Position numbers and translations under genes: made by a program | The notes under the pieces: generated by a model | The model's database searches: none | What the model saw: the letters and a program-made list of their open reading frames with translations, nothing else | What the model was told of the DNA's origin: nothing | In this document: positions 25,801 to 28,944 of the stretch, piece after piece | Layout: each line of letters starts with the position of its first letter | Position numbering within the stretch: the stretch's first letter is position 1 | Source: Rickettsiales bacterium | Lineage (GTDB): Bacteria > Pseudomonadota > Alphaproteobacteria > Rickettsiales > UBA998 | Direction of reading: 5' to 3' | Length of the DNA: 64,000 nucleotides | Assembly (NCBI GenBank): GCA_028279475.1 | Contig: JANQNR010000002.1 | Coordinates: forward strand, 62,001 to 126,000

Positions 25801-28548
25801 ATGGACTTTCCGAAGAAATACAATCATAAGGCACGCGAGAAACACTGGCAGGAAACATGGGAGGCGAACGGCGTCTACCATTGGCGTGGCGATCAGCCCC
25901 GCGAGAACACGTATGTGATTGACACTCCGCCGCCGACCGTCTCCGGCCTGCTGCATATGGGGCATATTTTCAGCTACACCCATGCCGATTTCGTGGCGCG
26001 CTATCAGCGGATGAAGGGCAAGGATGTGTTCTACCCGATGGGGTTTGACGATAACGGCCTGCCCACCGAGCGGCTGGTGGAAAAGACCAAGAAGATTCGC
26101 GCAAAAGATTTATCCCGTGAAGAGTTCATCAAGGTCTGCGAAGGTGTATCGGAAGAAGCGCGGCGCGAGTTCCGTTACCTGTTCACCACGACGGCATTGT
26201 CAGTGGACTGGAACCAGGAATACCATACGATCAGTGAACATGCGCGGCGCGTGTCGCAGGCATCGTTTCTGGATTTATACGAGAAAAGGCAGGTCTACCG
26301 CCAATTGCAGCCGATGTTGTGGGATCCGGTCGATCAGACCGCCATCGCCCAGGCGGAAGTGGAAGACAAGGAGTTGTCGGGCACATTTAATGATATTACG
26401 TTTGGCATCAAGGATTCCGATGAAACCTTCATCATCGGCACCACCCGCCCGGAGATGATCCCGGCCTGCGTGGCGATCTTTTATCACCCGGATGATGCGC
26501 GGTATCAGCATCTGAAAGGACGCATGGCAATCACGCCGCTATTTGGTGTTGAAGTGCCCATTTTAGAGGATGACACGGTCGAGCCGGACAAGGGCACCGG
26601 TATCATGATGTGTTGTACCTTTGGTGATGAGGCCGACATTGAGAAATGGCGCAAGCATGGGTTGGAGACGCGCATTATTCTGAATCAGTATGGGAAACTG
26701 CAAGACGAGCGGTTGGAATCCTTTGAAACACTTCAGGGAAAAAAAGCATCGGTAGCGCGGGAGAATATCATTGCATTGCTCCGTGACTCCGGCGACCTTG
26801 TGGAATCCAAGCCCATCACCCATGCGGTCAAATGCGCCGAGCGTTCCGGGGCGCCGCTGGAGATTATGCCGACGGAGCAATGGTTCGTGAAAGTGCTGGA
26901 ACATAAGGATGCGTTGAAGGCCAAATCACAGTCTTGCAACTGGAAACCCGCCTGGATGCAAAAGCGCATGGAGCAATGGATTGACGGGCTGAACTGGGAT
27001 TGGTGTATCTCACGGCAGCGCTATTATGGCGTGCCGTTTCCGGTATGGTATATCTTTAAAAGAAAATCTGAAAAAAGAACCGTTGCGGTTACTCATAAGT
27101 CAGGAACGGGAGAAGTCAAAGGCGTTAGCGAGGGTTCGATTGAAGAATGGGAGCGTTGTGGAATGTTTTATGCGGAACCAGATGAGCTTCCGGTAAATCC
27201 CATTTCTTCACCGCCTGCTGGTATCAAGATTTTATCCAAGGAAGCACCGGGCAACTGGATTGGCATTCACCCTGAAACGGGTGAAGAAGTGCTAATCACG
27301 GCTGATAAAGACGTCATGGACACCTGGGCGACGAGTTCGGTGTCGCCGCAAATCAGTGCGTATGTGATGTTTAACTCCCCCCTTGAGGGGGAGTCGAAGA
27401 GCGCAACGCGCGATTCGGTGGGGGGGCAACAACCATCTACCCCCCACGCATCGTCTTCGGACATTGTCCTCGACTCTGCTGCTCCCCCTCAAGGGGGGAG
27501 CTGTCCACGCCAGAAACTCTTCCCTGCTGATCTGCGTCCACAGGCGCATGAGATCATCCGTAGCTGGGCGTTTTACACGCTGGTCAAGTCGCACCTGCAT
27601 CATGACTCGGTGCCATGGCATGATTTGATGATTTCCGGCTGGTGTCTGGCCTCGGACAAAACCAAAATGTCGAAATCCAAGGGCAATGTCGTCACCCCAA
27701 CCGCCCTGTTGGAAGAGAAAGGCACGGACGCCGTGCGCTACTGGGCATCAACGGCCAAGCTGGGTACAGATACTGCCTTTTCCGAAGATTTACTAAAAAT
27801 CGGTAACAAGCTGGTGACCAAATTGTGGAATGCGTCGAAGTTTGCGGCCACGATTATGGGCGACACTCCGCTTGGGAAATCTCTCCCGGAAGGAGGCGAG
27901 GCTCCCCTCGATCGTTGGATGCTCAGCCGCATTCACCGTGCCATCACGGAAGCGGATCGCTGTTTTGCGGAGTATGATTATGCAGGAGCGCGTGCGGCAG
28001 TAGAAGATGTGTTCTGGAATGATTTCTGCGATAATTATCTGGAGCTGGTCAAGTCCCGCGCTTACGGTAATATGGGAGAGGCTGGGCAGCATTCTGCCGC
28101 GTGCACGATCTGGCATACGTTGCATGCCATCCTGAAACTCTTCGCTCCGTTCGTGCCGCATATTACTGAAGAGATTTACCATATTATCTACACTGAGGAG
28201 GCGACGCGCATCGGGTCAATCCATGCGCGTGGCAACTGGCCGGAGGCGCAGGCATTCCCGCTCGATGAGGCGGCGGAAGCAGCGGGGGTGACCACCGTGG
28301 CGCTGCTGGAACTGGTGCGCAAGGCCAAATCAGAGAAAGGCGTGTCGATCAAATACCCGATTGATCAAGCAGTGGTCAGCGGTGTGGAGGCGGATGTACT
28401 GGATGCCATTGCCGACGACCTCAAAGCTGCCGGAACCATCAGTGAGCTTACCACCGGCGATGCACCGAGCGAGGCAGTAACGTTACAGGATGACGCGCAG
28501 GGACTTTCTATTGCTCTGACCTTTGCCGCACAGGCGGATGTGGCATAA
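25801..28548 (+). CDS. valS: Valyl-tRNA synthetase, short archaeal/Rickettsia-like type, with in-frame repeat insert
   Basis: A 915-residue class I synthetase that charges tRNA-Val. HMGH (HIGH motif) is at residues 52-55 and KMSKS at 622-626. Blocks such as YPMGFDDNGLPTERLVEK, MLWDPVDQTAIAQAEVEDKE and CISRQRYYGVPFPVWY match Rickettsia ValRS as I know it, rather than the longer common bacterial type. No C-terminal coiled coil of the bacterial type is seen. Between DTWATSSVSPQ and LFPADLRPQAHEIIRSW there is an extra Ser/Pro/Gly-rich segment, residues about 526-567, encoded by a 126-bp palindromic element. The frame and both motifs remain intact. ATG 25801 fits the family start; the GGCGGAG before it is unusually close. 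Confidence 0.95.
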   Translation: MDFPKKYNHKAREKHWQETWEANGVYHWRGDQPRENTYVIDTPPPTVSGLLHMGHIFSYTHADFVARYQRMKGKDVFYPMGFDDNGLPTERLVEKTKKIRAKDLSREEFIKVCEGVSEEARREFRYLFTTTALSVDWNQEYHTISEHARRVSQASFLDLYEKRQVYRQLQPMLWDPVDQTAIAQAEVEDKELSGTFNDITFGIKDSDETFIIGTTRPEMIPACVAIFYHPDDARYQHLKGRMAITPLFGVEVPILEDDTVEPDKGTGIMMCCTFGDEADIEKWRKHGLETRIILNQYGKLQDERLESFETLQGKKASVARENIIALLRDSGDLVESKPITHAVKCAERSGAPLEIMPTEQWFVKVLEHKDALKAKSQSCNWKPAWMQKRMEQWIDGLNWDWCISRQRYYGVPFPVWYIFKRKSEKRTVAVTHKSGTGEVKGVSEGSIEEWERCGMFYAEPDELPVNPISSPPAGIKILSKEAPGNWIGIHPETGEEVLITADKDVMDTWATSSVSPQISAYVMFNSPLEGESKSATRDSVGGQQPSTPHASSSDIVLDSAAPPQGGSCPRQKLFPADLRPQAHEIIRSWAFYTLVKSHLHHDSVPWHDLMISGWCLASDKTKMSKSKGNVVTPTALLEEKGTDAVRYWASTAKLGTDTAFSEDLLKIGNKLVTKLWNASKFAATIMGDTPLGKSLPEGGEAPLDRWMLSRIHRAITEADRCFAEYDYAGARAAVEDVFWNDFCDNYLELVKSRAYGNMGEAGQHSAACTIWHTLHAILKLFAPFVPHITEEIYHIIYTEEATRIGSIHARGNWPEAQAFPLDEAAEAAGVTTVALLELVRKAKSEKGVSIKYPIDQAVVSGVEADVLDAIADDLKAAGTISELTTGDAPSEAVTLQDDAQGLSIALTFAAQADVA
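27375..27500. repeat. Palindromic repeat element D inserted in frame within valS
   Basis: Perfect 19-bp inverted arms: CTCCCCCCTTGAGGGGGAG at 27375-27393 and its reverse complement at 27482-27500. An inner stem GTGGGGG/CCCCCAC lies in the middle. The element is 126 bp, exactly 42 codons, and keeps the valS frame open. The arms differ from those of elements A-C. Confidence 0.85.
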
Positions 28549-28605: not shown

Positions 28606-28944
28606 ATGAAAAAGACGACAGAACAGGCAGAAGAATTCAGAGGCAGCCCTCCAATATATCAGGGATTAATAGAGGGTATGGCAGCCACTTCTTTAGCCAT
28701 GTTATTTGTAGAGGGTGAATTACCAAGACCTGAGAGCAAGGTAGTAAGGGGTGTCATTGCTGCCGTTGTGGTTGGTCTTGGTGGGGTGGCCGGAAAAATC
28801 GGATATGATAAAGCCAAAAACGCTCTTGACCAGTTTAAAGAAAATCAGCAGGTCATCGCCGAGCAACAAAGGATCATTTCTGAAGCAGAGAGCCAGGGGT
28901 TCGTTTATACGTCACCAGTCGCAGAAAAGAATATGGCGGGCTAA
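28606..28944 (+). CDS. Hypothetical small membrane protein with coiled-coil tail (112 aa)
   Basis: A 112-residue protein of unknown family. A hydrophobic, glycine-rich helix (about residues 47-63, VIAAVVVGLGGVAG) is followed by a charged helix with a heptad look (about 66-95). A first hydrophobic stretch lies near residues 24-34. TATAGTAT twelve bases before the ATG looks like a -10 box, so the mRNA may be nearly leaderless. The gene ends inside a terminator that serves the opposite strand. Confidence 0.55.
   Translation: MKKTTEQAEEFRGSPPIYQGLIEGMAATSLAMLFVEGELPRPESKVVRGVIAAVVVGLGGVAGKIGYDKAKNALDQFKENQQVIAEQQRIISEAESQGFVYTSPVAEKNMAG

Follow-up and report, generated by a model that had tools for sequence, protein, structure and literature searches.

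Palindromic DNA elements that code for protein have been known since 2000, when the Rickettsia palindromic elements (RPEs) were reportedly described by Ogata et al. To our knowledge, no enzyme has ever been tied to such palindromes. RPEs are 105-146 bp long and lie within genes, in frame (review PMC2229807). In their survey of 2013, Di Nocera et al. described alphaproteobacterial CGTC repeats without a dedicated transposase, listed replication, repair and tRNA synthetase genes among those with intragenic repeats, and asked whether specific proteins accompany untagged palindromes (PMC3733652).

The locus described here is a valyl-tRNA synthetase (ValRS) gene, valS, and the insertion of a palindromic element inside it is confirmed. 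The identity of the host gene was established with Pfam (tRNA-synt_1, E=2.8e-77; Anticodon_1, E=1.8e-34) and by a match to PDB entry 1gax (E=7e-83). The features are as follows, with positions counted in the window, the whole 64-kb stretch of DNA that was analysed.

25801-28548, forward strand: valS, valyl-tRNA synthetase, host of the insertion; open reading frame of 915 aa from the ATG at 25801
27375-27500, forward strand: palindromic element, in frame; 126 bp, 42 codons (SPLEGESKSATRDSVGG...APPQGGS)
27375-27393, forward strand: left terminal hairpin P (CTCCCCCCTTGAGGGGGAG), from inverted-repeat analysis
27394-27418, forward strand: left subterminal hairpin H (TCGAAGAGCGCAACGCGCGATTCGG), from the predicted fold
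27418-27425, forward strand: inner G-run (GTGGGGGG), pairing with 27440-27447
27426-27439, no strand: short central spacer of 14 nt, the position taken by the DUF559 gene in relatives that have one and whose ends are oriented alike
27440-27447, reverse strand: inner C-run (CCCCCCAC), from inverted-repeat analysis
27448-27481, reverse strand: right subterminal hairpin region (GCATCGTCTTCGG...CGACTCTGCTG), from inverted repeats and fold
27482-27500, reverse strand: right terminal hairpin P, exact reverse complement of the left P

A preliminary description had claimed perfect 19-bp inverted arms and an insertion that keeps the frame. Both claims are borne out: positions 27375-27393 and 27482-27500 are exact reverse complements, the 126 bp make up 42 codons, and the valS frame is open from 25801 to 28545. 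Zero sites with exact inverted arms of 19 bp are expected by chance, as judged from 100 shuffles of the window. Pairing of the arms continues to 27 bp (89%), 72 nt separate them, and the fold of a 146-nt stretch with the element has an energy of -44.9 kcal/mol (z = -7.3), which was equalled by 0 of 200 shuffles. Because each arm is a hairpin in its own right, with an 8-bp stem, the element is made of two facing hairpin units and is not a simple inverted repeat. Hairpins of differing sequence occupy the position of the left hairpin H at three other loci (L169, L165 and L032). A search of Rfam with the element returned chance-level scores only, none of them near a gathering score.

The effect of the insertion on the protein was assessed by aligning ValRS with 27 relatives and by inspecting an AlphaFold model. 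The nearest named record is that of the MAG Rickettsiales bacterium MSM10 (L063), 68% identical over the N-terminal part of ValRS, so the source is an uncultured alphaproteobacterium of Rickettsiales-like kind. No conserved segment of such length is common to the relatives. Between the motifs SPQ and LFPADLRP the nearest relatives have about 10-19 residues, and the ValRS with the element has 13 plus the 42 extra ones; in most of the 27 relatives the stretch is short and its DNA unpaired. In the model, pLDDT falls to about 30-47 over residues 513-573, directly before LFPADLRP, and the structure flanking them is mostly predicted with confidence; the one further stretch of poor prediction is the KMSKS loop (622-629). 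These values indicate that the insert is predicted as a disordered loop. The earlier view of the added residues as Ser/Pro/Gly-rich also holds.

This ValRS loop is a hotspot of insertion. It is empty in most relatives, it holds palindromes of other sequence types at L084, L081 and L034, and at L157 it holds a whole DUF559 domain with palindromes on both sides. Other inserts, whose nature is less clear, are found in it at L064, L066 and L082. At L091 and L078 it contains pairs resembling CGTC-type repeats (CGTCATTGCGAG... and GTCATCCTGAGCGAAG...), a separate occurrence with no tie to DUF559 here. Further ValRS loops carry lineage-specific inserts (L064, L073, L075, L080, L081, L082, L088, L091 and L096), and some of the lineage-specific loop inserts in relatives are palindrome-like in the peptide. 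In the ValRS insert at about residue 206 of L034 (genome G002), the DUF559 domain comes after about five tandem coding units of GRGLGEGTTEKPSPS.

BLAST with the valS element found 44 matches (E <= 1e-3) in the 1.98-Mb source genome (G000), some of which are the two halves of one element. Among the copies searched, which do not amount to a full in-genome census, in-frame members of the family occur in secA and close to the 3' end of rmlB, and another lies within an open frame directly upstream of ligA. The reading frame SPLxGES...VGG...PxQGxS is common to the copies in valS, secA and rmlB and to the sequence around a DUF559 domain in dnaE; the copy upstream of ligA also uses the frame SPLxGES...PxQGxS. 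Intergenic copies vary in length. The comparison with RPEs drawn in the preliminary description thus stands as far as behaviour is concerned, with a palindrome of ~100-150 bp, many copies, and in-frame insertions into conserved genes, the ValRS loop being empty in most relatives. A target duplication at the element ends was considered and rejected, since the end repeats of 17 copies did not exceed in length those of shuffled pairings (p=0.23). Some palindromes of the family (L004, L009, L011, L015, L022 and L026, near ~1500-1750) have a terminal hairpin that is broken by other palindromes (ACAGCACCCAC...GTGCTGTG; GCTTGCACCCCG...GCAAGC), one palindrome being nested in the loop of another.

The source genome contains two DUF559 domains, matching the PF04480 profile with E=1e-38 and 6e-41, and both are embedded in frame, one in dnaE and one in ileS. 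The domain in dnaE (C4:28480-28785) is bounded by ends of the valS family at C4:28424-28480 and 28792-28853, and a DUF559 domain of the relative G003 is likewise bounded by valS-family ends. The domain in ileS is flanked by a different palindrome, to which the genome contains 22 more matches, many in mirrored pairs of about 100 bp. The two DUF559 domains of this genome thus have separate end families, one set of short elements for each. A RAYT transposase was rejected as the partner enzyme: no match to Y1_Tnp (PF01797) was obtained in the source genome, and E. coli and other controls were positive.

The loop of dnaE is found in three states. It is empty in G004-G009, it contains palindromic coding sequence without DUF559 in G002, and in the source genome and G003 it contains DUF559 between valS-family ends. 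In both of the latter the end units face outwards, opposite to those of the short elements, which speaks against the reading proposed below. The DUF559 gene within such an element has about 105 codons. DUF559 is a PD-(D/E)XK, Vsr-like domain, and the Caulobacter DUF559 protein VsrA has been interpreted as a mismatch-repair nuclease (PMC12907096). PDB entry 3hrl, an endonuclease-like protein, matches DUF559 with E=2e-23. The catalytic-type residues E59, D61, G62 and H65, and others, are kept in all 35 of 35 embedded DUF559 copies, indicating that the embedded domains are not decaying as nucleases.

DUF559 was found in 42 of 131 genomes of the order; among the 51 nearly full-length domains that were read there, 35 form part of long open frames. 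About 19 different genes serve as hosts. Those identified by Pfam are IleRS, ValRS, DnaE, Mfd (the host at L143), CarB, GltB, RecJ, RecG, PriA, HolC, Sua5, RdgB/Ham1 and LipB, together with an FtsJ/S4 (TlyA-like) methyltransferase, a YkuD protein, a Pyr_redox_2 protein and two restriction-modification enzymes; peptidyl-tRNA hydrolase carries the domain as a fusion at its end, and the host at L156 is not recognisable by Pfam. This list resembles the host genes of intragenic repeats given by Di Nocera et al. In samples from the class and the phylum the open frames with DUF559 are mostly 110-250 aa, so these are free-standing genes. One genome, G089, has five DUF559 matches with differing end types (L158, L173, L180 and L184; C34:17834-18109), and holC and lipB are the hosts of two of these. 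Outside the order, inspection by eye placed DUF559 between palindromic peptides in an apparent HsdM-type methylase (L230, G267) and, fused, upstream of CbiG-like sequence (L222, G424).

We consider it likely that the valS element derives from DUF559-bearing elements as a miniature, non-autonomous form, comparable to a MITE or an RPE; its mobilisation by DUF559 is inferred. The 126-bp palindrome comprises two facing end units, each with hairpin P, hairpin H and G-run, around a short spacer, and the full-size element would be a DUF559 gene between ends of the same kind. DUF559 may recognise the ends of its own family, as hairpins or as cruciforms, and cut them, although Vsr-type nicking and hairpin recognition are inferences, and no nuclease activity or movement has been shown. 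If so, elements with those ends would be copied whether or not they hold the gene. The cut element would be copied to a new site without leaving a target duplication, by a route that is likewise inferred. Insertions into genes would be filtered, with survival only in frame and in loops; the valS palindrome has entered ValRS in frame, at a surface loop that tolerates it, and persists there as 42 residues predicted to be disordered. DUF559 is thus put forward only as a candidate agent for the spread of valS-type elements. We also lean, with less assurance, towards a broader proposal: that DUF559 with palindromic ends forms widespread, unrecognised minimal mobile elements in Pseudomonadota, driven by a Vsr-like nuclease of ~105 residues and not by a transposase, which make untagged palindromic repeat families and, in this Rickettsiales-like order, can place an entire nuclease gene within essential enzymes without a break in the frame.

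The explanation that competes best with a DUF559-driven element is an RPE-like mobile coding palindrome that spreads through slippage during replication, through repair or by means of an unidentified enzyme, DUF559 being a mere passenger. We regard this as unlikely, but it draws support from the absence of activity data, from RPEs and CGTC-type REPs having no known enzyme (PMC3733652) and from the repair role proposed for DUF559 in Caulobacter (PMC12907096). It does not readily account for the inverted flanks of DUF559. Flank-to-flank inverted repeats exceeded the 99th percentile of random positions for 42 of 51 DUF559 domains in the order and for 37 of 53 in the class and phylum samples, and matching inverted flanks were present on 76% of 104 DUF559 domains of Pseudomonadota vs 1.8% of 279 other genes. 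In most callable cases the units are oriented as in the short elements, with DUF559 at the position of the spacer; in three cases, including dnaE of the source genome, they are reversed on both sides.

A passenger is also at odds with the presence of two DUF559 domains and two separate end families within one genome, and with the finding that end similarity tracks DUF559 similarity. When end types, assigned by a simple pattern rule, were placed on the DUF559 tree, 15 changes were required vs 24.9 in shuffled data, and 0 of 2000 shuffles were as low (all rows). Between different host families DUF559 similarity correlated with end similarity (Mantel r=0.29; 0 of 2000 permutations). In ten genomes of the family, the copy number of an end family was higher where the matching DUF559 type was present (permutation p=0.001). 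The three end queries used for this count were taken from G000 (two) and G002 (one), a choice that biases the count towards these genomes; the pattern also fits G003, G007 and G009. When each host family was represented by a single DUF559, the tree test gave no signal (n=13, median p about 0.5), so that relatedness or low power matters; the evidence for the coupling comes from the tree test with all rows, the Mantel correlation and the co-occurrence of copy number. G002, which is 77% complete, is an exception that favours a passenger: it has 74 valS-family matches, and the only DUF559 found there is of another end type.

A second explanation, which we find very doubtful, is that DUF559 is a homing endonuclease of fixed housekeeping sites, like the endonucleases of inteins and introns, and that the palindromes are a secondary decoration. 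The Vsr-like nature of the domain speaks for such a role (PMC12907096), and the region of IleRS after LPSNLALAVSGEMEY has received DUF559 repeatedly, in genomes of several families. DUF559 domains in the same host gene also tend to be related (3 changes vs 5.7 in shuffled data), and vertical inheritance therefore explains part of the pattern, a point that also weighs against mobilisation by DUF559. Homing to fixed sites is contradicted, however, by the number of unrelated sites, by ends that are common to dozens of short copies elsewhere, and by the lack of any intein domain detectable by Pfam in the DUF559-bearing proteins. In two IleRS genes (L150:1-2769 in G005 and L179:2080-6399 in G099) a GNAT acetyltransferase domain (PF13302) accompanies DUF559 inside the synthetase domain, in frame, as a further cargo that resembles a gene. 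Finally, a conserved, lineage-specific and immobile extension of ValRS, suggested by the intact frame and by the varying length of ValRS loops in the group, has next to nothing left in its favour, being absent from the nearest relatives, palindromic in its DNA far beyond chance, and refuted by the copies of the element in unrelated genes and at intergenic sites of the genome.

A nuclease gene with the same ends as the short copies provides a concrete candidate for the untagged palindrome families, and one that can be tested in the tube. If the proposal is correct, a common domain still named DUF559 acquires a role in mobile elements. The data also show that enzymes of replication, repair and translation can harbour nuclease domains in frame. 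No paper on a DUF559-palindrome, Vsr-REP or MTES_1575 link was found in the openly licensed literature.

Four described systems bear comparison with the valS element. Like REPs and REPINs with their RAYT genes (REPtrons; PMC3733652, PMC8266576), it has paired, facing hairpin units, a candidate partner gene flanked by such units, and some intragenic copies; it differs in that the Y1/HUH transposase is absent from the source genome, the partner is a PD-(D/E)XK Vsr-like nuclease, and a GTAG tag was not noted. With MITEs and their parent insertion sequences it shares terminal inverted repeats and a short copy with a longer, gene-bearing relative that has common ends, transposition by DUF559 being inferred, whereas target duplication and a DDE transposase are absent and the gene has only about 105 codons. 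The CGTC-tagged REPs of Alphaproteobacteria, including RPE-4 and RPE-6, are likewise intragenic, paired and described without a dedicated transposase (PMC3733652), but the valS element is untagged and has another core sequence. RPEs resemble it in being palindromic with terminal inverted repeats, and in occurring both between genes and in frame in genes for conserved proteins, the host enzyme presumably still working. No RPE family has been shown to be related to the valS element in sequence, and RPEs are without a known enzyme, whereas the valS-type element has a nuclease gene with the same ends.
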